DNA of 64,000 nucleotides from Phytomonas francai (Eukaryota > Euglenozoa > Kinetoplastea > Trypanosomatida > Trypanosomatidae), in assembly GCA_001766655.1 (NCBI GenBank), contig MJCC01000014.1:115143-179142 (forward strand), given 5' to 3'. Under the pieces are notes generated by a model that had not been told where the DNA came from, did no database searches, and saw only the letters and a program-made list of their open reading frames with translations. This document shows, piece after piece, positions 1 through 39,466 of the stretch. The position numbers and the translations under genes are program-made. The number at the start of each line of letters is the position of its first letter. Position 1 is the first letter of the stretch.

Positions 1-812
1 GCGCTAAAGAAAATGTAGTCTCATCTTTTCGAATTTTGGGTATTGTTTCCGGTTATAGACATGCTATTTTTCTCTAAGATTAGACCTCTTCTATAGTTCA
101 GTTACTATCTAGAAAACTCTCGGATAAATGCGACTTCTCAACCCAATAAATTAGGCCAAAGAGATTCAAATTAAAAGCACCAATGCCATACTTTCAACAT
201 CATGCAACTTTAATTTCTTCTAAACTTGATGCTTAAAACCAATGGTCAGGAATACTACGTGAGCTGGAATTTTTTACCCATAAATGGCTGATGATAGGTT
301 ACATTTTCTTAGAAATGCATATATATGTATATAACCTTTTTTCCCGTCCATGCTCTGCATGGAAGTTGGAATGCAAACAGGTTCGGTACAAGGACATCAC
401 CAACAGATTCATTATCTGTGTCAAATAAGACATAAATAAATAATAGTTCCGCTTGAATCATCTCTATCGATTATTATCTAATGCCTATTCACATTTAGAC
501 CATTTTCAGTTATTCGTTTATGCACCTCTTCTTTGTATATTACACAAAGAATGAATTGTATTTCACTTCTTGAGAAGCTAAAGTTTGAATAACTTTTAAA
601 AAAAAGTCTATTTCAGTCAATTGCTCTTAAAATTTAGTGAAATTTCTTTTTGCTTCCCTGTCACAATCTGAAGTCTCATTCATTACGTATATATATATAT
701 ATATATATATGGTAAAGTGGGGAGGTGTTTAGCGAAGGACAAGATCTCTAGTATTTAGTTGTTCCTTGCCTTCCATTTTGTTGATATAGTCACTTGAACT
801 GATTCCCTGAGC
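1..812. other. AT-rich spacer, no gene seen
   Basis: No reading frame here looks like a protein. The stretch is AT-rich, with an uninterrupted TA run at 688-710, and leads into the first gene at 813. It is probably the 3' end of an upstream transcript plus the 5' leader region of the next gene. Confidence 0.5.
688..710. repeat. TA dinucleotide microsatellite
   Basis: About 11 TA units without interruption, roughly 100 bases before the first start codon. Similar runs occur at 16340-16360 and 35326-35346, always in spacers. Confidence 0.9.
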
Positions 813-1934
813 ATGCGCGGTTTCTTAGGGCGCAACAATGCAGACAAGCTGCAGCCTGGTTCAAACATCACTACCTACGAAGAGGCGCTCTATCCTCCGC
901 GACCTTTCCGCTACCACCTCCAACAGGATCCAATTGCTCCTTCAACGACACCAACAGCTTCGCTATCCTCAAATGCCTTGTATTCCGAATCCCTGCCTCC
1001 GCCGTTGATCGTATTACCAAGCATTGACGCGGATTCTATTTGTGAGCCCCACTCGCAGCAACCACAATCACAACAGCTCCTCCAGACTCGACGGCCCGCA
1101 GGTATGACATCCGGACTATCGGCTCCACCGAGTTCTGCCGTCAGCAAGCGACCACCTCCCTATCTGAGCAAGTTCTTCGACTGCTTCGTTCCATCCCCCT
1201 TCGCAATGAATGAGCGAGGCCTATTTGATGTGCTAGGGGGCCCCCAGTCCGACTGGTGCGAGCCGTTGAACATCTTTCACTACCCGGATCTCCTATTCGA
1301 CCCACCGCACTCGCCCAATGTCGAGGTCAAGCCTCCTGTAGGGAACGCTGTGGGCTGTAGAGGGGCAGAAAGCGCGACAGACCTGTCGCTGACGATGGAG
1401 CGGCGGCAAAGGGGGCTGTTGGAGCTGGCCGAAATCGCGCGTGCGCCGCTGGAGCTGCGCTCCTTCGTGATGGCCCTTGGCGTGGGCGGGGTGCTGGAGC
1501 TGCGGCCGGCGGCTGGCAAGAGTCGTAGTAAGCAGGAGGCTATCAATGTACTGCGTATTCGCGCCGTTCGCCGGCCCCTACCGCCGCGCCCGATTCGCCG
1601 TGGGGCGAAGGTGGTGCTGGATACGGTGCATGCCGCCCCATCAACCGGGGCGCGGGCGGTGTTGGATGGCAGGCTCAAGCAGTTGACCACCGACGCCGGG
1701 GTCGTTGGAAAGAAGAGACCTCGTAGTGGGGAGGAGGGAGCGGATGCAGATAATTTAGTGAACATGGAACACGATAACGAAAGTGACGATAGTAAACACA
1801 GTGCCAATATAGAGGAGGACGATGATGATGATGCGAACAACCTTTCGGATGGCTTTTTCGAAGCAGATGATGATGATTACGGTGATAATGCTAGGGGTGG
1901 TTTCAACGATGATAATGGAAATGATTTCTTTTAA
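813..1934 (+). CDS. Unknown protein with acidic C-terminal tail, possibly Pol III Rpc31/RPC7-like
   Basis: A 373-residue protein starting at an ATG. Residues 1-130 are rich in Pro, Ser and Gln, with a short N-terminal RGFLGR and an LYPP motif near 27. Residues 190-300 are basic and likely helical. The last 60 residues are strongly acidic, with Asp/Glu runs broken by aromatic residues (DGFFEADDDDYGDN near 347-359). RNA polymerase III subunit Rpc31/RPC7 has this layout: a Gly/Arg start, a proline motif, and a long Asp/Glu tail with Tyr/Phe and Asn. Only the layout agrees and I see no diagnostic catalytic motif, so the assignment is tentative. It could equally be a chromatin or nucleolar protein with an acidic tail. 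GC content rises sharply in the middle of the gene. Confidence 0.8.
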   Translation: MRGFLGRNNADKLQPGSNITTYEEALYPPRPFRYHLQQDPIAPSTTPTASLSSNALYSESLPPPLIVLPSIDADSICEPHSQQPQSQQLLQTRRPAGMTSGLSAPPSSAVSKRPPPYLSKFFDCFVPSPFAMNERGLFDVLGGPQSDWCEPLNIFHYPDLLFDPPHSPNVEVKPPVGNAVGCRGAESATDLSLTMERRQRGLLELAEIARAPLELRSFVMALGVGGVLELRPAAGKSRSKQEAINVLRIRAVRRPLPPRPIRRGAKVVLDTVHAAPSTGARAVLDGRLKQLTTDAGVVGKKRPRSGEEGADADNLVNMEHDNESDDSKHSANIEEDDDDDANNLSDGFFEADDDDYGDNARGGFNDDNGNDFF

Positions 1935-2219
1935 ATTTACAATGAATTTTTAACCTGTCGGAGTCTTATTTAGACTCGTGAATAACTTCTCCTATATGGA
2001 ATTTAGTTGACTTCATGAAGTTATTGTCTTGCCTTTAACATGATTCAGGGTATGCTATTATAAAAACATCAACCGTGCGACTTAATTCAAAGCTGTACAA
2101 ATGTTAATTTAAGAATATTTACACAAACATCTATTTGTGTGTATATTATCTTTCTCCTTGCATTTTATTGTTATGAAATACAAACATATTTGACTTTTAC
2201 ACCCAAAAGAATCCTTGTA

Positions 2220-2792
2220 ATGTCAGCCAAGGTTCCGAAGCTTTTCAACAAGTGGTCCTACGAGGGCATCACGTGCTCCGAGATCGCGCTACGCGACCAC
2301 ATCTCGATGACCGCGACCTATGTCCCGCACTCCGCGGGTCGCTGGCAGCGGAAGCGCTTCCGCAAGGCGCGCATGCCCATCATCGAGCGTCTGGCGAACG
2401 GTCTCATGTTCAAGGGCCGCAGCAACGGCCGCAAGCTGCAGGCCGCGCGCCTGCTGCGCCACACCCTCGATATCATCCACCTCCTGACGGACGAGAACCC
2501 CATTCGCGTGGTGGTCGACGCCGTGTCGAAGGGCGCCCCGCGCGAGGACTCGACCCGCGTCGGCTCCGGCGGCGTCGTGCGCCGCCAGGCCGTCGACGTG
2601 TCCCCGATGCGCCGCGTGGACGAGGCCATCTACCAGATGTGCAAGGGCGCCCGCATCGCGGCCTTCCGCAACCTCAAGACCCTCCCCGAGTGCCTCGCGG
2701 ATGAGATCGTGAACGCCTCGAAGGGTAGCTCGAACTCGTACGCCATCAAGAAGAAGGATGAGGTCGAGCGTGTGGCCAAGGGTAACCGATAA
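2220..2792 (+). CDS. RPS5: 40S ribosomal protein S5 (uS7), copy 1
   Basis: A 190-residue uS7-family protein of the small ribosomal subunit, which sits in the head near the mRNA exit and the E site. The frame is open upstream to 2139 without an ATG, so I chose the ATG at 2220 ([12 protein letters not shown]), identical to the start of copy 2. The uS7 core is clear: the [15 protein letters not shown] segment, the central [10 protein letters not shown] stretch, the basic [16 protein letters not shown] loop, and the C-terminal [14 protein letters not shown] end typical of eukaryotic RPS5. The protein is identical to copy 2 at 3090. Codons 2 and 3 use different synonymous codons in the two copies, while the rest of the coding sequence appears identical. 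Confidence 0.97.
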
Positions 2793-2815
2793 GCACCAGG
2801 AACAGAGATCAAACC
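2229..2815 (+). repeat. RPS5 homogenised tract, copy 1
   Basis: This tract pairs with 3099-3685. I see only one difference over about 587 bases (G at 2807 against A at 3677). Identity begins at codon 4 and ends about 23 bases after the stop. The flanks are unrelated. Confidence 0.9.
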
Positions 2816-3084
2816 GTAAGTTTGGTAGGGTCGTTATCCTTTTCCTTATTGGGTATCCCTTACTAAATGTGGCCGTAAGGATTCAAATATGTGTCACCCT
2901 AATAGGTGCACTTGTTTTCCGTTTATTTTCTTCATAAAAAAAAAATGGTAGAACTATTTGGTTTATTCGCATTTTTGTCAAATATTTTAATGCACGTTGA
3001 GGACAAAATATTATTTATTACTTGCTCACTTTTTTTCGCTTTTCATTTACTCCTTTAAATCACACACGATTTCACCCCCAAAGC

Positions 3085-3086
3085 AG
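3085..3086 (+). promoter_or_regulatory. Predicted spliced-leader acceptor AG for RPS5 copy 2
   Basis: A pyrimidine-rich stretch at about 3024-3080 is followed by AG three bases before the ATG at 3090. If used, the 5' UTR would be only three bases plus the spliced leader. Prediction from sequence pattern only. Confidence 0.35.
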
Positions 3087-3089
3087 GTC

Positions 3090-3662
3090 ATGAGCGCAAA
3101 GGTTCCGAAGCTTTTCAACAAGTGGTCCTACGAGGGCATCACGTGCTCCGAGATCGCGCTACGCGACCACATCTCGATGACCGCGACCTATGTCCCGCAC
3201 TCCGCGGGTCGCTGGCAGCGGAAGCGCTTCCGCAAGGCGCGCATGCCCATCATCGAGCGTCTGGCGAACGGTCTCATGTTCAAGGGCCGCAGCAACGGCC
3301 GCAAGCTGCAGGCCGCGCGCCTGCTGCGCCACACCCTCGATATCATCCACCTCCTGACGGACGAGAACCCCATTCGCGTGGTGGTCGACGCCGTGTCGAA
3401 GGGCGCCCCGCGCGAGGACTCGACCCGCGTCGGCTCCGGCGGCGTCGTGCGCCGCCAGGCCGTCGACGTGTCCCCGATGCGCCGCGTGGACGAGGCCATC
3501 TACCAGATGTGCAAGGGCGCCCGCATCGCGGCCTTCCGCAACCTCAAGACCCTCCCCGAGTGCCTCGCGGATGAGATCGTGAACGCCTCGAAGGGTAGCT
3601 CGAACTCGTACGCCATCAAGAAGAAGGATGAGGTCGAGCGTGTGGCCAAGGGTAACCGATAA
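3090..3662 (+). CDS. RPS5: 40S ribosomal protein S5 (uS7), copy 2
   Basis: A 190-residue protein identical to copy 1. The upstream frame is open to 2997 but lacks an ATG, so the start is the ATG at 3090. Codons 2-3 read AGC GCA here and TCA GCC in copy 1, giving the same Ser-Ala, while the following 560 or so bases match. The 5' and 3' flanks differ from those of copy 1, so each copy has its own UTRs and could be regulated separately after transcription, which is the main level of control in kinetoplastids. Leishmania also carries paired RPS5 genes. Confidence 0.97.
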
Positions 3663-3685
3663 GCACCAGGAACAGAAATCAAACC
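3099..3685 (+). repeat. RPS5 homogenised tract, copy 2
   Basis: Partner of 2229-2815 at an offset of 870 bases. The abrupt loss of identity at both ends close to the coding limits suggests gene conversion limited to the coding region. Confidence 0.9.
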
Positions 3686-3944
3686 AAACGAAAAGTTTCA
3701 TTTAGACCGCAGCTTTTGTTATTTTCTTTAATAATCCCAGTAATGGGCATAAAAAAAATACTGACTCTATCTTCCTGAGTGTTAGTAGAGTCTCCGAGAA
3801 CTTAAATCAAAAAACAACCTTTACTGGCTATAAATATTTTACTCACTACTCTCTGTTTCTATTCATTACCTTAACAAAGCAAAGTATGCTTTTTTATCCG
3901 TATTAGTAAGAGGAACGTAAAAGCCGTCTACTGTCGTATACGTA

Positions 3945-5126
3945 ATGTTTTCTTGGGATAATTTCGTACAGCAAGCTCAGGAACGCCGCCTTGTGCAGCT
4001 TTCAAGCGACAATGCGTTTGTTGACGTCAAGTCAGTTCTCTCTTCTTCCTCAGCTGCAGCCTCTGTTGCCGCAGCTAAAGGTGGCGAAAATGCGCTCAGT
4101 GGTGGTACTAATAAAGTTTCTCATCGTAATCGGGGTGAAGAGACACGGAACATTGAAAGACGTTTCTTTGAGGTTGGGCCAACAGGCGCATCAGGGTCCT
4201 TAAGAAATACCATGGCGGATACCGCATCGGGTGCATTACGGGTGGATCGCCTCAGGGGGGGCGATTTTGGAGCCAATGAACGTTTGAACCTAACTCAGTG
4301 TTTCGCCCAACAGCATAAAGATTACATGGAGATGTTAACCCGGGCCTGGAAAGATGCAAGTGAAAGCGAAGGGGTCAGCGCCGATGAGGCCTGTGAAGAC
4401 GATGATTCTCGAAGCAGAGAAGAAGCACACAATCTGAAAGTGGGCGAATCGTTCGAGGGAGAAGTCAAGACGGTAGGTTTGCGTCAAGCAAAGCGTACAA
4501 GAGCAAGTAAAAAGGGATACGGGAAAAAACGACAACAGGCGTCCGTTCATGATACGACGACAAAGGGGCAGCCACAACGGCGGTACCTGAAGCAGGGTGA
4601 GGTCCGTTGGTGGTGCCCAACGAAGGTCGAAGATGTGGAGACGGAACTTTCGGACGAAATACAACTTTTGCGGGCGTGGTATTCTGAAATGGCACGGGTT
4701 GAGGATAGTGACCACGAGAGTGAGGAAGGGCACGACACGACAGGTGACAACGCCAATATCTCCCCCCAAAGAGACTGCCAACAAGCCAAGAAGCCTAAAA
4801 TCCACGGAACAGGGTTAAAGGATGACAAGGCACACAAAGTTAAAGTCGAGTACGAGCAGCCAAACTTATTGGCTCCGTCCGTGTTGCGTTTCTTGACAAG
4901 TTGTCCTAGCTATATCGCCATGACTTCACCTTCCCCATTGAGCCTGTCTTCCCCTCAGACGAAGGGGCGGGTGAAAGTGGCTCCAGGCTGCCATACACAT
5001 CATTTATGTAGCGTGTGTCTACTCCCAGCGGCGTACCGCTGCGTCAGATGCCGATCTGCACTTTTTTGTTCAATCAAATGCCACGTTGCACACGACGCTA
5101 CTCGATGCTTGAAGTACACTGTGTAG
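3945..5126 (+). CDS. HIT-type zinc-finger protein, probable ZNHIT1/Vps71 homologue (SWR1-type remodeller subunit)
   Basis: A 393-residue protein. Its last 39 residues form a complete HIT zinc finger: C355-x2-C358-x7-C366-x2-C369-x5-C375-x3-C379-x3-H383-x4-C388, ending LKYTV. ZNHIT1/Vps71 proteins also carry the finger at the extreme C-terminus and end with a very similar RCLKWTV. The segment just before it (VLRFLTSCPSYIA) resembles the helix preceding the finger in that family. Vps71/ZNHIT1 is a subunit of the SWR1/SRCAP complex, which loads histone H2A.Z. The long N-terminal half is charged and poorly conserved, with Ala/Ser-rich and Lys/Glu-rich stretches, and makes the protein more than twice the length of human ZNHIT1. 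The zinc finger is certain; the family member is inferred. Confidence 0.85.
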   Translation: MFSWDNFVQQAQERRLVQLSSDNAFVDVKSVLSSSSAAASVAAAKGGENALSGGTNKVSHRNRGEETRNIERRFFEVGPTGASGSLRNTMADTASGALRVDRLRGGDFGANERLNLTQCFAQQHKDYMEMLTRAWKDASESEGVSADEACEDDDSRSREEAHNLKVGESFEGEVKTVGLRQAKRTRASKKGYGKKRQQASVHDTTTKGQPQRRYLKQGEVRWWCPTKVEDVETELSDEIQLLRAWYSEMARVEDSDHESEEGHDTTGDNANISPQRDCQQAKKPKIHGTGLKDDKAHKVKVEYEQPNLLAPSVLRFLTSCPSYIAMTSPSPLSLSSPQTKGRVKVAPGCHTHHLCSVCLLPAAYRCVRCRSALFCSIKCHVAHDATRCLKYTV

Positions 5127-5566
5127 ATGCAATGGATTTTTTACTCAACGGTTGCTACGTGTGTATCTAGGCTGTCTTTGGTAATCCTCCTACCTCATGC
5201 CCCTTTTTGTGTGATACAGCTCTTAGAGGAAGAAAAAAAAGAATATTTATAGCATGAGAGTATATGGGGTCTTATTTATTTATTTTCTCCCCACTTATAC
5301 TTTCATGTCTTTTTCACTTTCGGTTTTCTTCTTTCGAGACCAAAACTCCTCATTCCCTTTGAGTTGACCCTGTGTATTTATACCCACTCTTCTTATTATT
5401 ATCAAAAACAATAAAGTGCAGACTATTCATAAAAAAAAAACTATAAAATTGCAAAAATCTTGGGAAAATAATTATAACATATTAAACGATAAAAAGGAGT
5501 TTGTTCTAAGAGAGCAAAGATTCTAGTTGTTAGTACAATATAGACGAAGAGTGCAAAAAAGAGAGC
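5127..5566. other. Spacer, no gene seen
   Basis: Pyrimidine-rich tracts at about 5270-5400 would suit polyadenylation of the HIT-finger transcript and trans-splicing of the adaptin transcript. No protein-like frame. Confidence 0.5.
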
Positions 5567-8515
5567 ATGGCAAATTACACTTCCGGAGCTGCATTTTTTG
5601 ACCGCGGTATGGATATCATTTCCATATGTGATGATTTGAAGAGCAACAATGAGCCCCGACAGTTTGGCGCTCTTCAACAGGTAATAGCCAATATGACAAT
5701 TGGGAAGGATGTGTCTAGTTTTTTTAACGAAGTCATGGCACTAATCTCTTCGAACAATATTAGTATGAAGCGGTTGGTGTATATTTATTTCGTCCAAAAT
5801 TGTCGAGCGAATCCTGAAAAGGCTGTGCTGCATGTTGGATCCTTGACAAAAGACACTTTACATAACTCGCCCCTCATTCGCAGTGCCGCACTGCGTACCA
5901 TGTCAAGCTTACAAATATCTATTATGGCAGACGCTGCGGTGGCACCGCTACTCCGGTGCTTGGAGGATTCTGATCCCTATGTCCGGAGCGTCGCCGCGAT
6001 GGGGGTGCTGAAGCACTATACCGTCACACACTTGACTTCTTTTAACTATGTGTTGATTGAAGCCCTCAAAAAATTACTTTACGATCCTAACCCTATGGTA
6101 TGTGGAATGTGTGTGCAAGCTATTCTAGAATTACATAACAGGCAGGCTTCTGGCGGTTTGTTGAAGGCCATCTTCGATGCGTGCCCACACCTGTTAAAAA
6201 TGCTGGATGAAGCGACGGAGTGGTCAACATACTATATCCTGAAAGGAATTGCAGCCTCCTACCGATGTGCCCCTTCAACCTTGATACCCTTTGGTGCCAG
6301 TCATCCATGGGGTACTGCGGGTCATAATACATTTATGAAGGAAAGCGAGGAAGCTTTGATGCGAATTTTGCCTTATCTTTATGTTTCTAATAGCGCCACA
6401 GTCATGGCTGCTGTGAAGGTAGTAATGCTTTTTCTGAAGTCCACCAGGGAGCAAGGTGTACAATTGTCGAATGACCAGCGTGAGGCTCTTGATCGACGTT
6501 TCGTCACACCAATCACTAATGCATTGGTTTGTTTAGTTCATACCTCTCGTTATGAACTTCGGTACCTCGCTTTGAAAAATATTCAACTCTTTCTTTATAC
6601 GCATTTTTCGCCCTTTTTCGAGCCCCATCTTGGTATCTTCTTTGTTCAGAATGATGATCCTGTCTATATTAAGCTCGTTAAACTTGATATGTTGGTTGGT
6701 TTAGCCAATGAACCCAATGGGGCGCATGTGCTATCGGAGCTCGAGGTGTATGCGAGGGATACTGACCTTGAGTTTTCTTCTAAGAGCATACGCTCGATTG
6801 GCTTGCTGGCCCTGGCTATTCCATCGCTCGCGCCCGAGTGTGTTAGGAAGCTCGAGGATCTTATTCACTCCCAAGACCCCCACATTATTGAGAATGCTGT
6901 AATAGTAGTGCAAACCGTGCTGCGGCAGTACCCAGGTAGATTTTTGGGTATCATTCTTATTGTGTACGAGTCATTAAGCCTTTTAGACGACGAAAACGCA
7001 CGCGCAGCAGTAGCGTGGATCATTGGCGAGTACGCGGACCATGTACCACAAGCCATGGATTACATTCATATTTTTGTTGATAATTATATGGAAGAACCTC
7101 TTAAGGTTCAGCTTTCAGTTCTTACAGCACTTGTCAAGATGCGAGTGCGCAGTGCAAGCGAGAAATCTACGGAAAAGGTGTTGGAATGCCTCAAAGTTGT
7201 CTTCGCACAGTGCATGGAATGCCAACAGCCAGACCTTCGGGATCGTGCTTTCTACTATCAGAGGATGCTTTCTACCGATATCGTCGTAGCACGGCAGATC
7301 CTTTCCGATGTGCATAACGTGCCGCTGCAGATGCATGGTTTCCCCCACGAAAAAACACGGAAATATATATTTGAGCATCTTGGATCTCTTCAATCACTCA
7401 TACATCAGCCAATCCAGCATGCACTTCGGAAGTCAGCCGACGGTGGTGATTATGTTAGAACTTCGCGCTTTTTCTCTTCGGCTAGCAGCCTTGATGACGA
7501 AGATTTAGATGGCAAGGACTCCGAGGTTAGTTTTATCGAGGGTGAGGCAAGTCCCTCAGCGCAAAGGCTCCACCTCAATGTCACGATCGAAAATGACGAG
7601 AAAGAGAGGAGCACCTCCAACACGATCAAAAAAAACATTGAAACGGACGTGGCTAACAGCATCAACGGGTACGCTGACAACCCTCCCTCCGCGTCCACAG
7701 GCGGTTTCTCAAAACCAGAATACATGCCCATCACGATTTCGTCTAGCCGTTTCATGGATCCAGGGAGTTTGCCCGCCACCACCGCGGCGGCGGCTGGGAA
7801 GATGAACTACCAGGTAGTTTTGCCCGCCGCCGCCGCCGCCGGGGTCGAGGTCGCACTGCGCTGGTCTCAACTCGGGGTGAAGCTCGTGCTGAACTGCCGT
7901 GTGTGTCTCCGCCGCGGCGACGACTTCGTGCGACGCGCGCGGCTCACCGACCTGCAAATTAATCGAAACCTCTTCAGCCTCGGGGTGCAGCAGGTCTTCC
8001 CTCAGACGAGCCTCGAGGCCGGGGACCAGGTGCGGGAGCTCAGCCTGATCGTCTCCGGTAACAACGAGCGGAGGCCGACGCGGGATCTCGAGGTCGCGGT
8101 GGAGATCCAGCCGGTCGGGGTGCGCTACGCCCTCGCCCCACCCGTCCCACCCGTGATGCTGCTGCGCCCCGCCACGGGTTGCGCTCTCGCGGACTTCCTG
8201 CGCTGGTGGCGCGAGATCCCAGAGCCGACCTGGCGCATCCCGTCCTCGGTTGTCTGCGGGAGGTGCGAGGAAAACCGCTTCACGCCTAACACGCTACGGG
8301 TGCACTGTATTAACCTGGTCCACCGCAAGGATCTGGCCCCGCATGGGTTGACGTCGTTCTTTCTTCACGCAGAAACTATTGCGAAGGACCGGCTTTTGTT
8401 CGATGTCACCGTCTTTCAGGAAAAATTGTTGCTTCTTACAGTTCGGTGCCACTACGCACCTGTTGCAGCTTTCTTTGGAGAATACATCAAAAGTTCTATA
8501 TGCAGCCATACGTAA
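5567..8515 (+). CDS. Beta-adaptin, large subunit of an AP clathrin-adaptor complex
   Basis: A 982-residue protein, close to the usual length of AP-1/AP-2 beta subunits (about 940) and longer than most AP-4 beta. Residues 1-600 form the Adaptin_N helical-repeat trunk with clear beta signatures: MTIGKDVSSFF near 42, KRLVYIYF near 67, NDDPVYIKLVKLDMLVGLA near 364 and DDENARAAVAWIIGEYADH near 475. Residues 620-720 are a polar hinge. Residues 725-982 are the appendage, opening with Ala-rich stretches. The protein selects cargo and recruits coats at the Golgi, endosome or plasma membrane. The trunk looks more like AP-1/AP-2 beta than AP-3, but I cannot settle the complex. Composition jumps to very GC-rich at about 7740-8340. 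A decayed copy of codons 405-515 lies at 12040-12410. Confidence 0.93.
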   Translation: MANYTSGAAFFDRGMDIISICDDLKSNNEPRQFGALQQVIANMTIGKDVSSFFNEVMALISSNNISMKRLVYIYFVQNCRANPEKAVLHVGSLTKDTLHNSPLIRSAALRTMSSLQISIMADAAVAPLLRCLEDSDPYVRSVAAMGVLKHYTVTHLTSFNYVLIEALKKLLYDPNPMVCGMCVQAILELHNRQASGGLLKAIFDACPHLLKMLDEATEWSTYYILKGIAASYRCAPSTLIPFGASHPWGTAGHNTFMKESEEALMRILPYLYVSNSATVMAAVKVVMLFLKSTREQGVQLSNDQREALDRRFVTPITNALVCLVHTSRYELRYLALKNIQLFLYTHFSPFFEPHLGIFFVQNDDPVYIKLVKLDMLVGLANEPNGAHVLSELEVYARDTDLEFSSKSIRSIGLLALAIPSLAPECVRKLEDLIHSQDPHIIENAVIVVQTVLRQYPGRFLGIILIVYESLSLLDDENARAAVAWIIGEYADHVPQAMDYIHIFVDNYMEEPLKVQLSVLTALVKMRVRSASEKSTEKVLECLKVVFAQCMECQQPDLRDRAFYYQRMLSTDIVVARQILSDVHNVPLQMHGFPHEKTRKYIFEHLGSLQSLIHQPIQHALRKSADGGDYVRTSRFFSSASSLDDEDLDGKDSEVSFIEGEASPSAQRLHLNVTIENDEKERSTSNTIKKNIETDVANSINGYADNPPSASTGGFSKPEYMPITISSSRFMDPGSLPATTAAAAGKMNYQVVLPAAAAAGVEVALRWSQLGVKLVLNCRVCLRRGDDFVRRARLTDLQINRNLFSLGVQQVFPQTSLEAGDQVRELSLIVSGNNERRPTRDLEVAVEIQPVGVRYALAPPVPPVMLLRPATGCALADFLRWWREIPEPTWRIPSSVVCGRCEENRFTPNTLRVHCINLVHRKDLAPHGLTSFFLHAETIAKDRLLFDVTVFQEKLLLLTVRCHYAPVAAFFGEYIKSSICSHT

Positions 8516-8934
8516 GTCTAAAACAGACTGAACAGAAACAAAACAAAGGGAGATATTGAAATCTAGATAAGAATCACAAAGGAAAAGGACGCGTTCGCAC
8601 TGTTGTAATATTTTCCCAAATTCATGTCAGCCTTGAGTAGATTAATCGGCCGCTATGCGTTTCCTCTACTCTTTTTGTTCCTATACGCCTATCGTCACAA
8701 ATGCGCTTTACTAATATACAATGAGGTTGTTAAATGCTTAATTAGGACGATAAATATGCCCCTCATCAATATCTTTTATCTTTACCTGGATCCAAGGATT
8801 GATTTGAAACTCTCGTGAGGCCTTCGATTCCTTAATTCAAATTAAGGAAAATGAATGATAAAGGTATCAGGAAAACGGTATATCAAAATGACCCCACAAA
8901 GGAAAAGGCACGACTGCTTCGGAATAGTTAAATT
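8516..8934. other. Spacer between beta-adaptin and the PPDK repeat
   Basis: AT-rich with no credible gene. It has no counterpart before the second PPDK gene, so it lies in the stretch lost from the second copy of the duplication. Confidence 0.6.
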
Positions 8935-9033
8935 AATAAAAATGCTGTGTCACGGTGCGCATGTGCCTTGGGCTGGCTTTGGGTATGCACACACTTCCTT
9001 CTTTGCCCCCCCCCCCTCCTTCATCTCACCGAA

Positions 9034-9035
9034 AG
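9034..9035 (+). promoter_or_regulatory. Predicted spliced-leader acceptor AG for PPDK copy 1
   Basis: A strong pyrimidine tract, including 11 C in a row, runs from about 8994 to 9029. The next AG follows immediately, about 90 bases before the ATG. The same arrangement is repeated before copy 2 (AG at 12514-12515). Confidence 0.45.
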
Positions 9036-9124
9036 TGTTTTCCAACGATCCCGCAATTATCTATTAATTAAAAGCTAAAGTTATTAAGGTTTGAGATACA
9101 ATTCCGCGTTAAGGAATAATAACA

Positions 9125-11869
9125 ATGCAAGCGAAAAAGCAGGTGTACTACTTTGGAGGCGGTAAGTCTGATGGCACCCGGGATATGAAGATGCTTCTCG
9201 GCGGCAAGGGTGCCAACCTCGCCGAGATGGTGAACCTTGGTCTGCCCGTCCCGCCGGGCTTCACCATCACCACTGAAGTCTGCGCTGCATTCCAAGTTGA
9301 AAAGAAGGTCCCTGTTGAGGTAACGGAGATGGTAAAGGATATGGTCAAGAGGGTCGAGAAGGAGATGAACAAGGAGTTTGGCAGCCTCGAGAACCCTCTC
9401 CTGTTCTCTGTTCGCTCTGGCGCAGCGGCGTCGATGCCTGGCATGATGGACACCGTGCTGAACCTCGGTCTCAACATGGCGACTGTGGATGCGTGGGTGG
9501 CTCGTTCCCCGAACCTGGCCCGCTTTGTCTATGACTCCTATCGTCGCTTCATTACGATGTACGCTGACATCGTCATGCAGGTTGGTCGCGAGGATTTCGA
9601 GAAGGAGCTGGGCACGATGAAGAAGCAGCGCAACACCAAATTCGACAGCGATCTCACCGCCGCCGACCTCAAGCAGCTCTCGAAGCAGTACCTCGAATTG
9701 TTCGAGAAGAAGACGGGCCGGCCGTTCCCGCAAGACCCGTGGGAGCAGCTGCACGCCGCCATTTGCGCCGTCTTCCGTAGCTGGACCAACCCGCGTGCAG
9801 AGATGTACCGCCGGATGAACCACATCACCGGGCTCATCGGAACCGCCGTAAACGTTCAGGCCATGGTGTTCGGCAACATCAACGACAAGTCCGCCACGGG
9901 TGTTGCCTTCTCACGCAACCCGTCGACCGGTGAGAATTACTTCTACGGTGAGTACCTGATCAATGCTCAGGGTGAGGACGTTGTGGCTGGCATTCGGACT
10001 CCCCAGCAGATCAGCAAGGTGCTCTCGCTGAAGTGGGCCAAGGAGTATGGCGTCAGCGAGGAGGAGCGGCTGCGCCGCTACCCGTCGATGGAGGAGTCCA
10101 TGCCCGGAAACTACCGCATGCTCTGCGAGATCCGCGAGAAGCTGGAGAAGCACTACCGCGACATGCAGGATATTGAGTTCACGGTCGAGAACGGCCGCCT
10201 GTGGATGCTGCAGTGCCGCGTTGGCAAGCGCACGATCCACGCTGCTGTGAAGATCGCGATCGACATGCACGGCGAGGGTATGATCACCAAGGAAGAGGCC
10301 GTGCTGCGCGTGGACCCAGAGCAGGTCAGCCATTTGCTGCACCCCACGATCGACCCTGTCTCCGTGGCCTCCGCCAAGCCCCTCGGCAAAGGTCTCGCCG
10401 CCAGCCCTGGTGCTGCGGTGGGCCAGGTTGTGTTCAACGCCCAGGATGCGAAGGCTTGGGCCAGCAAGGGAAAGAAGGTCATCATGGTGCGCCTCGAGAC
10501 TTCGCCCGAGGACTTGGCTGGCATGCATGCCGCGGAGGGTATTTTGACGGCGCGCGGCGGTATGACCTCGCACGCGGCCGTCGTGGCCCGCGGCATGGGC
10601 AAGTGCTGCGTGTGTGGCTGCGGCGACATGCAGATCAAAGGGAAGAAGTTCACGCTCCACGGGGTTGAGATCAAGGAGGGTGACGTCATCACGCTGGACG
10701 GCAGCCGCGGTCTTGTGTACAAGGGCGCCCTGAAGCTGAAGTCTGTCAGTCTGGGGGGCAACATCAAGGTGCTCCTCAAGTGGTGCAAGGAGATCAAGAG
10801 CCTAGGCGTGCACGCCAACGCGGATACCCCGAACGACGCGACAACGGCTTACAGCTTCGGTGCCGATGGCGTGGGCCTGTGCCGAACTGAGCACATGTTC
10901 TTCGATAAGAAGCGCATCAGTGCGTTCCGCCAGATGATCCTGGCCGATAAGCTATCCGACCGTGAGGTTGCCCTGGACAAGCTGATGCCGATGCAGAAGG
11001 AGGACTTTATGGGTCTTTTCCGCACGATGCAGGGCAAGCCCGTGACGATCCGCCTGCTGGACCCTCCGCTGCACGAGTTCCTGCCCACCAAACCCTCCGC
11101 ACAGAAGGCCCTGGCCAGCGAACTCGGCGTCCCGGTCGAAAAGATCGAGCAGCGCACAAAGAGCCTGCACGAGGTGAACCCGATGCTGGGCCTGCGCGGG
11201 TGCCGCCTGGGTATCGTGTATCCGGAGGTCTACAACATGCAGGTCCGGTCCATCATCGAGGCTGCCTTGGAAGTCTCAAAGGAAGGCGTGAGCGTGCGCC
11301 CCGAGATTATGATTCCCCTTGTTGGTAAGAGGGAAGAGCTCGCCTACACCCGGAAGAACGCGGTCCTGACCGCCGAGAAGGTCATGAAGGACCACAACAT
11401 GCGCGTGGACTACCTCATCGGTACCATGATCGAGGTGCCCCGTGCGGCTGTCACCGCTGACCAGATTGCCCAGGAGGCTGACTTCTTTTCCTTCGGTACG
11501 AACGACCTCACGCAGTTGGGCTCTGGGTTTTCGCGTGACGATGCCGCGTCATTCCTGCGCCGCTACAACGAGCTCGACATCTACACCCGCGACCCCTTCG
11601 AATCGCTGGACCAAGACGGCGTGGGCGTGCTCGTGAGGATCGCCACCGAGAAGGGCCGCCAGGCGAAGCCGAATCTCAAATTGGGCATCTGCGGCGAGCA
11701 CGGCGGAGACCCGCTGACTGTCAAGTTCTGCCACAAGATTGGCCTCAACTACGTGTCCTGTTCACCGTTCCGTGTTCCCGTGGCGATTGTGGCCGCCGCG
11801 CACGCCGCTGCCTTGGAGAGGCTGAACAAAGCGAAGCCCGCGAAGGAAGTCGCTCAGAGCAAGCTCTAA
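9125..11869 (+). CDS. PPDK: Pyruvate phosphate dikinase, glycosomal, copy 1
   Basis: A 914-residue enzyme that interconverts pyruvate, ATP and phosphate with phosphoenolpyruvate, AMP and pyrophosphate. In trypanosomatids it helps balance ATP and pyrophosphate inside glycosomes. The N-terminal ATP-grasp domain covers about 1-340 (YYFGGGKSDGTRDMKMLLGGKGANLAEM start). The swivelling phosphohistidine domain has GGMTSHAAVVARGMGK with the catalytic His at 483. The C-terminal PEP-utilising barrel covers about 535-880, with GTNDLTQLG and LGICGEHGGDP, whose acid/base Cys is 856. Length matches the family. The last three residues, SKL, are a peroxisomal/glycosomal PTS1 signal. It differs from copy 2 only at residue 899 (Arg here, Ser there), outside the catalytic sites. 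Confidence 0.98.
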   Translation: MQAKKQVYYFGGGKSDGTRDMKMLLGGKGANLAEMVNLGLPVPPGFTITTEVCAAFQVEKKVPVEVTEMVKDMVKRVEKEMNKEFGSLENPLLFSVRSGAAASMPGMMDTVLNLGLNMATVDAWVARSPNLARFVYDSYRRFITMYADIVMQVGREDFEKELGTMKKQRNTKFDSDLTAADLKQLSKQYLELFEKKTGRPFPQDPWEQLHAAICAVFRSWTNPRAEMYRRMNHITGLIGTAVNVQAMVFGNINDKSATGVAFSRNPSTGENYFYGEYLINAQGEDVVAGIRTPQQISKVLSLKWAKEYGVSEEERLRRYPSMEESMPGNYRMLCEIREKLEKHYRDMQDIEFTVENGRLWMLQCRVGKRTIHAAVKIAIDMHGEGMITKEEAVLRVDPEQVSHLLHPTIDPVSVASAKPLGKGLAASPGAAVGQVVFNAQDAKAWASKGKKVIMVRLETSPEDLAGMHAAEGILTARGGMTSHAAVVARGMGKCCVCGCGDMQIKGKKFTLHGVEIKEGDVITLDGSRGLVYKGALKLKSVSLGGNIKVLLKWCKEIKSLGVHANADTPNDATTAYSFGADGVGLCRTEHMFFDKKRISAFRQMILADKLSDREVALDKLMPMQKEDFMGLFRTMQGKPVTIRLLDPPLHEFLPTKPSAQKALASELGVPVEKIEQRTKSLHEVNPMLGLRGCRLGIVYPEVYNMQVRSIIEAALEVSKEGVSVRPEIMIPLVGKREELAYTRKNAVLTAEKVMKDHNMRVDYLIGTMIEVPRAAVTADQIAQEADFFSFGTNDLTQLGSGFSRDDAASFLRRYNELDIYTRDPFESLDQDGVGVLVRIATEKGRQAKPNLKLGICGEHGGDPLTVKFCHKIGLNYVSCSPFRVPVAIVAAAHAAALERLNKAKPAKEVAQSKL

Positions 11870-12039
11870 ATTTCTTTTTAAATATTATTGTTATTGGATT
11901 ATGATTGTTACCTAAAAAAAAAAACGATTTTTGTGAACGAAAGTATATAAAATATCGGAAAATACACCTATTGATTATCTTAAACAATAACAGCACTGGG
12001 AGGGGGGAAGTTTATACAAGACTGGGAAAAATATAATAA

Positions 12040-12410
12040 TCTAAGCATCGCCGATGTTAGGCTCTCCTTTAAGTGCTCTCAGACAATTATTTTAATAACA
12101 TAACTATTCCATCACTCATGCCCACGTGTTTCATGCTTAAGAATGTACTCTATTCCAAAGACTCCTATATTGTTGGTAATGCCGTAGTGGTGATGACGCG
12201 GAATGTGCTGCGGCAGAATTCGGGTAGATTTTCCTTTTTGAGGGTGGGGGGGAAGCGAGTTATTCCTACTGGGTGTGAGTTATTACGTTTTTAATTGACT
12301 AGGACGCACACGTGGCTGTAGCGTAGCTCATTGGCGCTACACAGACCACGTACCGTAAGCCATTGATTGCCTTCTTTTTGTCGATAGACTCTAATGGGAA
12401 GTTTCTGTAA
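12040..12410 (+). pseudogene. Decayed beta-adaptin fragment between the PPDK copies
   Basis: This stretch aligns along its length with the beta-adaptin gene at about 6779-7110 (codons 405-515). Shared anchors include GTGCTGCGGCAG, GTAGATTTT, TCATTGGCG and TACC..AAGCCAT.GATT in the same order and with almost the same spacing. It is broken: the tryptophan codon in the VAWIIG segment is TAG, CCA CAA has become CCG TAA, and small insertions and deletions shift the frame. It starts at TCTAAG, where PPDK unit A ends, and stops just before PPDK unit B. It is the remnant of the adaptin part of an ancestral adaptin-PPDK tandem duplication. A short open frame at 12073-12294 is residual and not a gene. 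Confidence 0.88.
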
Positions 12411-12513
12411 CAAAATAAAAATGCTGTGTCACGGTGCGCATGTGCCTTGGGCTGGCTTTGGGTATGCACACACTTCCTTCTTTGCCCCCCCCCCCCTCCT
12501 TCATCTCACCGAA

Positions 12514-12515
12514 AG
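12514..12515 (+). promoter_or_regulatory. Predicted spliced-leader acceptor AG for PPDK copy 2
   Basis: Same pyrimidine tract as for copy 1 but with 12 C in a row. The AG lies about 90 bases before the ATG at 12605. Both genes therefore probably carry the same 5' UTR. Confidence 0.45.
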
Positions 12516-12604
12516 TGTTTTCCAACGATCCCGCAATTATCTATTAATTAAAAGCTAAAGTTATTAAGGTTTGAGATACAATTCCGCGTTAAGGAATAAT
12601 AACA

Positions 12605-15349
12605 ATGCAAGCGAAAAAGCAGGTGTACTACTTTGGAGGCGGTAAGTCTGATGGCACCCGGGATATGAAGATGCTTCTCGGCGGCAAGGGTGCCAACCTC
12701 GCCGAGATGGTGAACCTTGGTCTGCCCGTCCCGCCGGGCTTCACCATCACCACTGAAGTCTGCGCTGCATTCCAAGTTGAAAAGAAGGTCCCTGTTGAGG
12801 TAACGGAGATGGTAAAGGATATGGTCAAGAGGGTCGAGAAGGAGATGAACAAGGAGTTTGGCAGCCTCGAGAACCCTCTCCTGTTCTCTGTTCGCTCTGG
12901 CGCAGCGGCGTCGATGCCTGGCATGATGGACACCGTGCTGAACCTCGGTCTCAACATGGCGACTGTGGATGCGTGGGTGGCTCGTTCCCCGAACCTGGCC
13001 CGCTTTGTCTATGACTCCTATCGTCGCTTCATTACGATGTACGCTGACATCGTCATGCAGGTTGGTCGCGAGGATTTCGAGAAGGAGCTGGGCACGATGA
13101 AGAAGCAGCGCAACACCAAATTCGACAGCGATCTCACCGCCGCCGACCTCAAGCAGCTCTCGAAGCAGTACCTCGAATTGTTCGAGAAGAAGACGGGCCG
13201 GCCGTTCCCGCAAGACCCGTGGGAGCAGCTGCACGCCGCCATTTGCGCCGTCTTCCGTAGCTGGACCAACCCGCGTGCAGAGATGTACCGCCGGATGAAC
13301 CACATCACCGGGCTCATCGGAACCGCCGTAAACGTTCAGGCCATGGTGTTCGGCAACATCAACGACAAGTCCGCCACGGGTGTTGCCTTCTCACGCAACC
13401 CGTCGACCGGTGAGAATTACTTCTACGGTGAGTACCTGATCAATGCTCAGGGTGAGGACGTTGTGGCTGGCATTCGGACTCCCCAGCAGATCAGCAAGGT
13501 GCTCTCGCTGAAGTGGGCCAAGGAGTATGGCGTCAGCGAGGAGGAGCGGCTGCGCCGCTACCCGTCGATGGAGGAGTCCATGCCCGGAAACTACCGCATG
13601 CTCTGCGAGATCCGCGAGAAGCTGGAGAAGCACTACCGCGACATGCAGGATATTGAGTTCACGGTCGAGAACGGCCGCCTGTGGATGCTGCAGTGCCGCG
13701 TTGGCAAGCGCACGATCCACGCTGCTGTGAAGATCGCGATCGACATGCACGGCGAGGGTATGATCACCAAGGAAGAGGCCGTGCTGCGCGTGGACCCAGA
13801 GCAGGTCAGCCATTTGCTGCACCCCACGATCGACCCTGTCTCCGTGGCCTCCGCCAAGCCCCTCGGCAAAGGTCTCGCCGCCAGCCCTGGTGCTGCGGTG
13901 GGCCAGGTTGTGTTCAACGCCCAGGATGCGAAGGCTTGGGCCAGCAAGGGAAAGAAGGTCATCATGGTGCGCCTCGAGACTTCGCCCGAGGACTTGGCTG
14001 GCATGCATGCCGCGGAGGGTATTTTGACGGCGCGCGGCGGTATGACCTCGCACGCGGCCGTCGTGGCCCGCGGCATGGGCAAGTGCTGCGTGTGTGGCTG
14101 CGGCGACATGCAGATCAAAGGGAAGAAGTTCACGCTCCACGGGGTTGAGATCAAGGAGGGTGACGTCATCACGCTGGACGGCAGCCGCGGTCTTGTGTAC
14201 AAGGGCGCCCTGAAGCTGAAGTCTGTCAGTCTGGGGGGCAACATCAAGGTGCTCCTCAAGTGGTGCAAGGAGATCAAGAGCCTAGGCGTGCACGCCAACG
14301 CGGATACCCCGAACGACGCGACAACGGCTTACAGCTTCGGTGCCGATGGCGTGGGCCTGTGCCGAACTGAGCACATGTTCTTCGATAAGAAGCGCATCAG
14401 TGCGTTCCGCCAGATGATCCTGGCCGATAAGCTATCCGACCGTGAGGTTGCCCTGGACAAGCTGATGCCGATGCAGAAGGAGGACTTTATGGGTCTTTTC
14501 CGCACGATGCAGGGCAAGCCCGTGACGATCCGCCTGCTGGACCCTCCGCTGCACGAGTTCCTGCCCACCAAACCCTCCGCACAGAAGGCCCTGGCCAGCG
14601 AACTCGGCGTCCCGGTCGAAAAGATCGAGCAGCGCACAAAGAGCCTGCACGAGGTGAACCCGATGCTGGGCCTGCGCGGGTGCCGCCTGGGTATCGTGTA
14701 TCCGGAGGTCTACAACATGCAGGTCCGGTCCATCATCGAGGCTGCCTTGGAAGTCTCAAAGGAAGGCGTGAGCGTGCGCCCCGAGATTATGATTCCCCTT
14801 GTTGGTAAGAGGGAAGAGCTCGCCTACACCCGGAAGAACGCGGTCCTGACCGCCGAGAAGGTCATGAAGGACCACAACATGCGCGTGGACTACCTCATCG
14901 GTACCATGATCGAGGTGCCCCGTGCGGCTGTCACCGCTGACCAGATTGCCCAGGAGGCTGACTTCTTTTCCTTCGGTACGAACGACCTCACGCAGTTGGG
15001 CTCTGGGTTTTCGCGTGACGATGCCGCGTCATTCCTGCGCCGCTACAACGAGCTCGACATCTACACCCGCGACCCCTTCGAATCGCTGGACCAAGACGGC
15101 GTGGGCGTGCTCGTGAGGATCGCCACCGAGAAGGGCCGCCAGGCGAAGCCGAATCTCAAATTGGGCATCTGCGGCGAGCACGGCGGAGACCCGCTGACTG
15201 TCAAGTTCTGCCACAAGATTGGCCTCAACTACGTGTCCTGTTCACCGTTCCGTGTTCCCGTGGCGATTGTGGCCGCCGCGCACGCCGCTGCCTTGGAGAG
15301 TCTGAACAAAGCGAAGCCCGCGAAGGAAGTCGCTCAGAGCAAGCTCTAA
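12605..15349 (+). CDS. PPDK: Pyruvate phosphate dikinase, glycosomal, copy 2
   Basis: A 914-residue protein identical to copy 1 except Ser at residue 899, from a G-to-T change at 15301. The catalytic His483, Cys856, GTNDLTQLG segment and C-terminal SKL glycosomal signal are all intact, so both copies should encode active, glycosome-imported enzyme. The 5' and 3' flanks match those of copy 1 to within homopolymer lengths, so expression control is probably shared and the duplication chiefly raises dosage. The near-perfect match contrasts with the heavily diverged adaptin remnant just upstream, which belongs to the same duplication event. Confidence 0.98.
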   Translation: MQAKKQVYYFGGGKSDGTRDMKMLLGGKGANLAEMVNLGLPVPPGFTITTEVCAAFQVEKKVPVEVTEMVKDMVKRVEKEMNKEFGSLENPLLFSVRSGAAASMPGMMDTVLNLGLNMATVDAWVARSPNLARFVYDSYRRFITMYADIVMQVGREDFEKELGTMKKQRNTKFDSDLTAADLKQLSKQYLELFEKKTGRPFPQDPWEQLHAAICAVFRSWTNPRAEMYRRMNHITGLIGTAVNVQAMVFGNINDKSATGVAFSRNPSTGENYFYGEYLINAQGEDVVAGIRTPQQISKVLSLKWAKEYGVSEEERLRRYPSMEESMPGNYRMLCEIREKLEKHYRDMQDIEFTVENGRLWMLQCRVGKRTIHAAVKIAIDMHGEGMITKEEAVLRVDPEQVSHLLHPTIDPVSVASAKPLGKGLAASPGAAVGQVVFNAQDAKAWASKGKKVIMVRLETSPEDLAGMHAAEGILTARGGMTSHAAVVARGMGKCCVCGCGDMQIKGKKFTLHGVEIKEGDVITLDGSRGLVYKGALKLKSVSLGGNIKVLLKWCKEIKSLGVHANADTPNDATTAYSFGADGVGLCRTEHMFFDKKRISAFRQMILADKLSDREVALDKLMPMQKEDFMGLFRTMQGKPVTIRLLDPPLHEFLPTKPSAQKALASELGVPVEKIEQRTKSLHEVNPMLGLRGCRLGIVYPEVYNMQVRSIIEAALEVSKEGVSVRPEIMIPLVGKREELAYTRKNAVLTAEKVMKDHNMRVDYLIGTMIEVPRAAVTADQIAQEADFFSFGTNDLTQLGSGFSRDDAASFLRRYNELDIYTRDPFESLDQDGVGVLVRIATEKGRQAKPNLKLGICGEHGGDPLTVKFCHKIGLNYVSCSPFRVPVAIVAAAHAAALESLNKAKPAKEVAQSKL

Positions 15350-15517
15350 ATTTCTTTTTAAATATTATTGTTATTGGATTATGATTGTTACCTAAAAAAA
15401 AACGATTTTTGTGAACGAAAGTATATAAAATATCGGAAAATACACCTATTGATTATCTTAAACAATAACAGCACTGGGAGGGGGGAAGTTTATACAAGAC
15501 TGGGAAAAATATAATAT

Positions 15518-16631
15518 TCTAAGTAGTAGTTGAATTCGAGAAAAACTAGGGCCATACAATTTATAAATTATCGATTTATTTATAAATTCAAAAGTAGCAA
15601 TATATTTGCTGCCTTTTATATAGTATTCGAATATTTCCTTTTATACTTATATGGGTTTATTTATATTTATATTTACCGAAATGAACTACTTTTGTTTAAT
15701 GATTTTAGTATTCATAATCGAAATTTTTTCTTTTAAGTCTAGATAATAATTATTTGTGCTTGTTTTTCCTCTATGATTTCATATTTTGATATCCCAAAAT
15801 ATTTATTGTAATTTATATATCTGAGATTTTGATAATCTTTTTTTTTTAATATTAAACTTTAGGCTTAATGATTTTCCTTTATTTTAATTTGTGCGAATTT
15901 TCGGTTATTTTTCTTTTCCATAGTTCTACAACCGAACTTGAGGTTAAGATAATGGGCTTCAAAAAAACTTCTAATCACTGAAAACTACTATACTTTCTGT
16001 TTCTTGAAGATAATTGGCACAGCATTGGTGTAAAACACAAAGGAAAATACTCTAAATGGGAGTACTATTTAAAAAAATCTAATCCTTCTTTACCATCTAT
16101 TTATGGGTTTCTGTGTTTAGGTGCGATTGTGTCGTTTTTGACTGACATCATTTTATTTATACTTTATGTTTTTCATAATAATAATATAAACATTAAAAAA
16201 ATGTGTTAGATACGAAAATAAAAATATTTCTTTTTTTACATACGTGTGTGTGTGTGCGTTTAGTAACACGTCCAAATCCTCGAGCCTTAACATGGACATA
16301 TGTTTATCGTATTAGCATGATTATGCCTCCTCCTTTTTCTATATATATATATATATATATAATATTTATTTAAGGAATTATTAAATCTGAGATTCTATAG
16401 GAGTCTTTTTCATTGCATTCGGTCGAGAAATATTTACTCCAACCACAAGAAAATCATAATAATAACGGAAACTTTTCCCAAATATAGCCATACAATACAA
16501 ACAATATTAATTGAACAACAATTCTTTCTTAGAACGCAGAGGAAGGAGTATAACTCTAAGAGATCAAAAAAAAATTGAGTGTCTGGGAAAATAAAAGCTA
16601 TACATCTAGCATTAAGACATTGATCCTGAGA
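15518..16631. other. AT-rich spacer, no gene seen
   Basis: Very AT-rich, with long T runs and a TA microsatellite at 16340-16360. No frame has protein-like composition. Confidence 0.55.
16340..16360. repeat. TA dinucleotide microsatellite
   Basis: About 10 uninterrupted TA units following a pyrimidine tract, some 270 bases before the 5-phosphatase start codon. Confidence 0.9.
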
Positions 16632-18650
16632 ATGCAAAGTCTTCTTACTGAGACCGCGGAAAAGCGGGAGGCTCCGCTTCCTCAGGAGCAATCCACCGTG
16701 TTCTGCGCCCGTGCCGCCTCGTTAGCTTTTCAAGCCGCTAATTGCAATGTGAAAAACTCCCAACAAGGGGGAAGTATAGAGCAATACGATATGGACGAGC
16801 AGCCGACGGTGCTGCTGCTTACGCAAAATGTTGGTGCTATGAAACCCTGCAGCGAAGCTCCACCGGCCGAGAACCATTCCTTGGCCAACGAGGAGTCTGG
16901 CGAAGATGGCAAAGGGGTTAACAACGTTTCATCTATAGCAATAGTGGGAGAAACTGTGGATAGCGACGCTACACCATTACCGAGATTTGCAAAAACGGAA
17001 CCAACACTCAACAATGAAGAGGAGGCGATGGCTACGTCGCTACAGGGAGTTGAAGGAAGGGCTGAAGTGCTCACAGAGCGCACCAAAGCGTTAGTTTATG
17101 AGTTTATCGCTGATTTGCGCTCGTGGATTCACCGCGCTGCAGCCTTTGCGGATGCGCGGAGGCAGCGAACGCGGTCCCTTCCTCTTTCCTCACCGCAGCA
17201 CGGCAGTTCCGAGATAGGTGATGATGTCGAAATGAAGACGAAAAAACAACGCGATGCTGACTGGTGGACGAACGCAACGAATCACCCGAACATCGCCGAA
17301 GTTCACCCTCCGCAAATAGACGTCGTTGTGATTCACTTTCAGGAGATTGGTGGTGCCGAACGCAATAAGGCGTTTATCAATTTCTTTTCGGAAGCTATTT
17401 CGACAAGGTTGTTACCGGAGGCTGGGTGGACGAGTGGGTTATTGATGCACCACGGCGATCTTGACGCTGCTCGAGATCTGAAGACCGAGGAGGAAAAATG
17501 TTCTTTTAACGGGGTAGGCAGCATCGTCTTTCTCTCACCGCGGATGTGCCCGATCTCGAGTCTACTCCTTATCCCGCATCGCATCTACATCCCAGTTTCA
17601 GACGACCCCTGCTCCTACGGCGGGAGTATCTTGCGCGTGTTCCACGGCGCGACCTTTACGTCCTCGCCGCGCTCGCGAAAGGGGTTTGTGTTCTTCTCCC
17701 TACGTCTCGGGACGCAGGTGGTGAACTTGTGCAACGTCCACCTCTTCCACGACGCCGACAACACCAAGGCGCTCGCGAGCAGCCCGAGTCGCTACGCCCG
17801 GCGTCGTCTGGAGGCCTGTCTCGAGGCCGTCACCGAGGGCGCCGCGCTGTGGGCCCGCGAGGAGCCCTTCTTCCTCTTCGGCGACCTCAACACGCGGCTG
17901 GACGGGTGCGAGCTCGCGCAGCAGCTCCAGCGCGGGCCCGCCCGGATTGAGCTGCGGACCGGGCCGAAGACACTGCGCTGCCCGGACGCGTTTTGGGCCA
18001 TCTTCGCCGACCCGGACGGCCGCGCGCAGCTCCGCGGGCTCGATCGCGAGCCGCAGCAGCTGCTGGACGCCGTCGCCGCGAGCACCGGGGTGGAGCTGGG
18101 GGAGATGCCGGTCTACTTCGCGCCGACGTACTTGCGGCTGCCGAGCACCTTGGCGGATCGCGCAGCGCCGCAAACAAGCACCCCAGCTCTCAAAGAAGCC
18201 CCCCCAGGTAAATGGGAACACGACGGCGAAAAAGAGCAGGTGGAGGAGGAGCAGGGGCTTGCCACTGCTGCTGCTCTGATAGCGCCTCGTGCGCGCACCA
18301 ACTTTGAGCACCGGCGCATTCCTGCGTGGTGTGATCGCATCATGTTCAATCCAGCCGCGTTGGCGTTCATAACCAGACAGCGAGGGGGTGGCGGAGGTTC
18401 TAGACCCCTTGAGCGAAATCGTGGCTCAGAGGAAGGAGGCGGCAATAGCAAAGGCCATGTCGAAGAGGCTACTGATGCGAGTAATAATCGCTCCGGTGAG
18501 GTGCAGAGTAGTCGTGTGGAGGGAGGAAGCCACGCACGCAATTCCTCAACTCGGGGAGGCGAAACCTCAGGGAGTTCTGATGTCTTGTATTTGTACGACG
18601 CTGTATCCCTACTTCACACCGATCATGACGGCGTTTTTCTATTGTTTTAA
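16632..18650 (+). CDS. Inositol polyphosphate 5-phosphatase (IPPc domain)
   Basis: A 672-residue protein. The frame is open to 16575 but the first ATG is at 16632, so I start there. The IPPc catalytic core is marked by HFQEIGG with the metal-binding Glu at 238, FGDLNTRL at 416-423, RIPAWCDRI at 562-570 and a final HTDHDGVF in place of the family's SDHxPV. These enzymes remove the 5-phosphate from phosphoinositides or inositol phosphates and control membrane identity and signalling. Residues 1-215 are Ser/Glu-rich and probably disordered. Two polar insertions break the catalytic core, before RIPAWCDRI and between it and the last motif. I see no membrane segment, SAC domain or CAAX end. GC content peaks at 17600-18170. 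Confidence 0.93.
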   Translation: MQSLLTETAEKREAPLPQEQSTVFCARAASLAFQAANCNVKNSQQGGSIEQYDMDEQPTVLLLTQNVGAMKPCSEAPPAENHSLANEESGEDGKGVNNVSSIAIVGETVDSDATPLPRFAKTEPTLNNEEEAMATSLQGVEGRAEVLTERTKALVYEFIADLRSWIHRAAAFADARRQRTRSLPLSSPQHGSSEIGDDVEMKTKKQRDADWWTNATNHPNIAEVHPPQIDVVVIHFQEIGGAERNKAFINFFSEAISTRLLPEAGWTSGLLMHHGDLDAARDLKTEEEKCSFNGVGSIVFLSPRMCPISSLLLIPHRIYIPVSDDPCSYGGSILRVFHGATFTSSPRSRKGFVFFSLRLGTQVVNLCNVHLFHDADNTKALASSPSRYARRRLEACLEAVTEGAALWAREEPFFLFGDLNTRLDGCELAQQLQRGPARIELRTGPKTLRCPDAFWAIFADPDGRAQLRGLDREPQQLLDAVAASTGVELGEMPVYFAPTYLRLPSTLADRAAPQTSTPALKEAPPGKWEHDGEKEQVEEEQGLATAAALIAPRARTNFEHRRIPAWCDRIMFNPAALAFITRQRGGGGGSRPLERNRGSEEGGGNSKGHVEEATDASNNRSGEVQSSRVEGGSHARNSSTRGGETSGSSDVLYLYDAVSLLHTDHDGVFLLF

Positions 18651-36776: not shown

Positions 36777-36796
36777 AGCGGACTGAGCTGGAGCGA
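36330..36796 (+). repeat. RPL28 homogenised tract, copy 1
   Basis: This tract pairs with 39000-39466 at an offset of 2670. Identity starts at the ATG itself and ends 20 bases after the stop codon. Confidence 0.93.
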
Positions 36797-39446: not shown

Positions 39447-39466
39447 AGCGGACTGAGCTGGAGCGA
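39000..39466 (+). repeat. RPL28 homogenised tract, copy 2
   Basis: Partner of 36330-36796. The 467-base tract appears identical in both copies. Confidence 0.93.

Follow-up and report, generated by a model that had tools for sequence, protein, structure and literature searches.

A decayed beta-adaptin fragment between two near-identical PPDK genes of Phytomonas francai and what it suggests about their age

The tandem gene arrays of T. brucei are described as evolving in concert, non-coding parts included, and their tandem duplicates as 'not usually identical' (PMC1855330). The two PPDK genes reported here resemble those arrays in their tandem copies, their polycistronic transcription and, most likely, gene conversion that includes non-coding sequence. 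The locus differs from the arrays in that there are two copies only, which are nearly identical, and in that a pseudogene fragment of another gene lies between them and provides a clock. For Phytomonas an almost complete absence of tandem duplicates has been reported, with most metabolic genes in one haploid copy (PMC3916237), and because of this report a doubled PPDK is mildly unexpected here. Among the listed proteins there is one PPDK record each for Phytomonas EM1 and HART1, compared to two PPDK genes in this genome. The literature we searched, with texts accessible in part, contained no description of the adaptin-PPDK locus.

The window is the whole stretch of DNA that was analysed, 64,000 nucleotides at C5:115143-179142 of an assembly of 17,403,260 bases in 37 contigs, and all genome searches were run against this assembly. 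The locus consists, in this order, of an intact beta-adaptin gene (5567-8515), a spacer (8516-8934), PPDK unit 1 (8935-12045), the adaptin fragment, which we call the relic (12046-12413), and PPDK unit 2 (12414-15523); both genes and the relic are on the forward strand. The beta-adaptin gene, the parent of the relic, is an open frame of 982 aa with a match to Pfam Adaptin_N (E 1.2e-88). PPDK unit 1 is made up of 190 nt of 5' flank, a coding sequence (9125-11869, 914 aa with an SKL end) and 176 nt of 3' flank, and unit 2 contains a coding sequence of 914 aa at 12605-15349. The genome search returned two PPDK matches, units 1 and 2, whereas the relic, the spacer and the sequence downstream of unit 2 (15524-16574, which is unlike the relic) each occurred once. 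In the protein search of the genome we found one beta-adaptin gene of this kind; three other matches showed 27-34% identity. The closest relatives among the matches listed were Phytomonas EM1 and HART1, with protein identities of 76% and 72% for beta-adaptin and 92% in both cases for PPDK. The gene at 5567-8515 is probably AP-2 beta, because its T. theileri relative carries that name, no T. brucei protein appears among the 120 matches listed for it and salivarian trypanosomes are described as lacking AP-2 beta (PMC3650584).

Adaptin and PPDK records come from contigs of the same size in EM1, HART1, T. theileri and T. rangeli, which suggests that the two genes are old neighbours, and they are probably adjacent in EM1 and HART1, which by protein identity belong to the same genus. 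In T. cruzi and T. conorhini the two records are on contigs of different size. For L. infantum, LinJ.11.0960 is named S5 and LinJ.11.1000 is named PPDK in the literature; this numbering agrees with a conserved order, because here too an S5-family pair lies ahead of the adaptin gene.

The relic is a sense-oriented pseudogene fragment of beta-adaptin. An earlier note, made from the sequence alone, had derived 12040-12410 from the interior of the upstream gene in one direction and had asked for a comparison with shuffled sequences. Position and direction were borne out, with 12051-12410 aligning to 6762-7103 in sense orientation. The local score of 12040-12413 against the adaptin coding sequence was 179, while 1000 dinucleotide-preserving shuffles gave a mean of 29.2 (sd 3.3) and a maximum of 41, and the reverse strand of adaptin scored 30. 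Under strict scoring we aligned a core of 12104-12401 with 6816-7094 (271 columns, 72 mismatches, 73.4% identity, 10 indels); 50 of the mismatches are transitions and 22 are transversions. The permissive alignment spans 12051-12410 and 6762-7103, comprises 333 columns with 31% mismatch and 11 indels, and reached a score of 285 (500 mononucleotide shuffles: mean 140, maximum 165), so that the relic leaves little of the interval between the PPDK units uncovered. The spacing, which had been called conserved, is so overall, apart from three insertions (12, 9 and 3 nt) and some small gaps. Against 1-5566 and 15524-64000 the strict core did no better than chance (93 of 200 and 47 of 60 shuffles as good, respectively), and the longer query 12040-12413 scored 43 against 1-5566. 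Genome-wide, a search with 6700-8934 returned its self-match alone, and the relic was absent from the matches of the adaptin protein search. Both searches miss fragments of such size and decay, and more relics may therefore exist elsewhere.

The two ends of the relic are weaker than its core. For the left piece (12046-12103) taken alone, DNA scores were equalled by 414 of 5000, 936 of 3000 and 35 of 300 shuffles, and we had at one stage treated it as non-homologous. This reading was dropped after two further comparisons: among 2880 ungapped offsets in adaptin the best is the collinear one by a narrow margin (25 of 54 matches, runners-up 24), and the translated piece scored higher against the adaptins of HART1 and EM1 (26 and 24, equalled by 32 and 71 of 5000 shuffles, respectively) than against the adaptin of this genome (19, equalled by 420 of 5000). 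On these grounds we take 12046-12103, with moderate confidence, as homologous to adaptin. The right end (12396-12413) showed no significant match by itself, its score being equalled by 2022 of 3000 shuffles. We considered TTCTAAG, which occurs at both 15517 and 6778, as junction microhomology (0.0006 for a random junction) and set it aside as coincidence, because in the better alignment the relic begins near 6762 of adaptin and TCTAAG of adaptin is paired with TTTAAG inside the relic.

The reading frame of the relic is broken, just as the earlier note had described with its stops and frame shifts: three stops lie in the parent frame (12300-12302, 12324-12326 and 12356-12358, at parent codons 476, 484 and 495) and 7 of the 11 indels are not multiples of three. 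Together with the shuffle control these defects make the original sighting of a molecular fossil correct. The mismatches are spread over the codon positions as expected under mostly free decay (25/90, 18/90 and 29/91; chi-square p 0.19, a weak test with 72 mismatches). Nothing points to a product of the relic: its frame is broken, and Rfam, searched with 5000-17000 at gathering thresholds, gave no match. Trypanosomatid genes are transcribed jointly and then separated by trans-splicing and polyadenylation, and for this reason the relic is probably no more than spacer or a portion of the PPDK 1 3' untranslated region. Upstream of PPDK 2 we found pyrimidine tracts at 12473-12483 and 12485-12502, and the first AG after them (12514-12515) is 89 nt before the ATG; the equivalent in unit 1 is at 8994-9035. 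In each unit this combination, at 12473-12515 in unit 2, is probably the trans-splicing signal.

To place the relic in time we used informative sites at which the EM1 and HART1 adaptins agree and the adaptin of this species differs. The relic carried the EM1/HART1 residue at 5 of 5 sites in four of six alignment scorings, the strict one included, at 6 of 6 in one scoring and at 8 of 8 in the permissive one, and in none of the six did it have the residue of this species. When we simulated neutral decay from the present adaptin, none of 20000 runs reached 5 of 5, and in 5000 runs for the 8 sites the highest count was 4. We also slid the relic along the branch of this species with the other branch lengths fixed. 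Attached at the tip it fell 13.6 (permissive) or 11.1 (strict) log-likelihood units below the best position, and attached at the base 1.7 (permissive) or 2.4 (strict) units below. These residues and likelihoods strongly indicate that the relic had already separated from adaptin when the adaptin of this species gained the tested changes, and the separation probably took place near or before the divergence from HART1 and EM1. A single position in the tree was sought as well; 6 of 10 topologies keep an AU p above 0.05. Only the place along the branch of this species is informative. AU p was 0.23 for the relic as sister to this species, 0.23 for HART1 and 0.06 for EM1. Together with this open topology, two points weigh against the early separation: the relic forms a long branch, and the remaining classes of sites are mixed. 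At 13 sites where this species matches HART1 and not EM1, the relic agrees with this species 6 times and with EM1 3 times; at 10 sites where this species matches EM1 and not HART1, it agrees with this species 3 times and with HART1 once.

The PPDK units by themselves would suggest a different age. Over 3.1 kb they differ by 2 substitutions, at 11821/15301 (R899S) and 12039/15517, and in the lengths of two homopolymers. R899S, near the C-terminus, is the only amino-acid difference between the copies, and both keep the SKL end, the usual glycosomal signal. The divergence between the units amounts to 0.0006 substitutions per site, whereas 27% of the strictly aligned sites are mismatched between relic and adaptin (K2P 0.34). 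The relic is thus far more diverged than the PPDK pair, and this age conflict was absent from the reading in the earlier note. In the non-coding flanks of the units we counted 1 substitution in 366 nt, where ~97 would be expected at the mismatch rate of the relic. Selection on the enzyme therefore does not explain the likeness, and homogenisation, if it took place, reached the non-coding parts. The units are identical from the first base at their left border and to within 6 nt of the right one. The PPDK copies are more alike than the age of the relic allows, provided that the relic and the second PPDK are of the same age. With divergences so different, one simple duplication cannot account for both; either the PPDK copies were homogenised, or a further event took place recently. 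That the relic is diverged and keeps EM1/HART1 residues while the units are near-identical makes the duplication look old and the PPDK copies homogenised.

The history that we regard as probable would run as follows. In an ancestor, probably around or before the split from HART1 and EM1, a segment from inside adaptin through PPDK would have been duplicated in tandem. The second adaptin piece, truncated and useless, would have been free to decay, and only ~365 bp of it would be left, the counterpart of 7104-8934 having been lost or never copied. Both PPDK genes would have stayed functional, and each would have been overwritten by the other repeatedly, through gene conversion that extended as far as their shared sequence; this would give them the look of a new duplication, which the relic between them contradicts. 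The position and orientation of the relic fit a DNA-level origin together with its neighbour, as in tandem duplication; the other route considered is insertion of a copy. The unit itself, from inside adaptin through PPDK, had been proposed in the earlier note; it remains the best fit and the simplest source, because the relic is adaptin-derived, has the same orientation, nearly fills the gap and derives from what looks like an old neighbour of PPDK, but a single duplication of it is insufficient unless homogenisation or a second event is added. Likewise, the loss of about 1.8 kb suggested there agrees in size with the missing part (7104-8934, ~1.83 kb), while 'later lost' has to compete with never copied. 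Tandem duplication as the source and deletion of the missing part are thus what we infer, and gene conversion is the most likely process to have homogenised the PPDK genes. The sharpness of the unit borders speaks against conversion over a long time, as a recent duplication would give such borders and conversion need not. The statement that tandem duplicates of T. brucei are 'not usually identical' (PMC1855330) also counts against it.

The window holds local precedent for sharp-edged homogenisation in two pairs of ribosomal protein genes. Two L28e-family genes (36330-36796 and 39000-39466) are identical over 467 nt from the ATG and have unrelated flanks; the ORF between them (37432-38754) is unrelated and without a Pfam match. 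Two S7/S5e-family genes (2229-2806 and 3099-3676) are identical over 578 nt, again with unrelated flanks. Just upstream of this identity, codons 2 and 3 differ synonymously (TCA GCC versus AGC GCA), which looks like the unconverted edge of an old pair. Both pairs share identical cores and sharp borders with the PPDK units. However, the homogenised stretch extends little beyond the coding region in the ribosomal pairs, whereas the PPDK units have 190 nt and 176 nt of flank in common.

A different account, which we consider unlikely yet the strongest competitor, accepts an old relic but takes the second PPDK to be new. An adaptin fragment would already have been present upstream of a single PPDK, relic and PPDK unit would recently have been duplicated in tandem, and the first copy of the relic would then have been deleted; the likeness of the units from border to border would simply reflect youth. 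The 2 substitutions in 3.1 kb of coding and non-coding sequence, with the units alike to both borders, agree with such a scenario, as do the one PPDK record each listed for EM1 and HART1 and the report that Phytomonas metabolic genes are mostly single (PMC3916237). When the spacer 8516-8934 was compared with adaptin, 11 of 300 shuffles scored as well, a borderline match that could be a trace of a lost upstream fragment or chance; in the comparison with the relic 246 of 300 shuffles did as well, and there is no match. The scenario further requires three events, and it would be a coincidence for the recent deletion to stop close to the end of the old adaptin homology (12401-12410, compared to the border at 12413/12414). 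We give even less credence to the idea that gene conversion has kept the PPDK pair identical since before the split of the three Phytomonas lineages, that EM1 and HART1 then lost the second copy, and that the relic now lies within the 3' untranslated region of PPDK 1 and causes two identical glycosomal enzymes to be expressed differently.

It is very improbable that the assembly or its polishing created the pattern, either from a single PPDK unit or by consensus correction that made two units alike. A near-identical repeat of 3.1 kb is indeed hard to assemble and polish. However, two PPDK units are needed, since the genome search gave a single relic that borders on both of them and since the sequences outside them differ; short-read polishing should not remove differences of several percent. 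Finally, chance similarity of an unrelated spacer, with no duplication of adaptin, has next to no probability in spite of the weak DNA scores of the ends 12046-12103 and 12396-12413, since the shuffle control already refutes it, the match is collinear over ~340 nt and the strict core scores like shuffled sequence against the rest of the window on either side of the locus.

The relic is a genuine molecular fossil of a known kind, of use above all as a clock for the genes beside it. As a rule, near-identical tandem genes are taken as recent; the dead neighbour between the PPDK copies is an independent clock that points in the opposite direction, and it concerns a doubled metabolic gene in a genus described as nearly free of tandem duplicates (PMC3916237). 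In trypanosomatid genomes such trapped fragments could help to separate old, converted arrays from young ones and to measure how near to their borders gene conversion acts.
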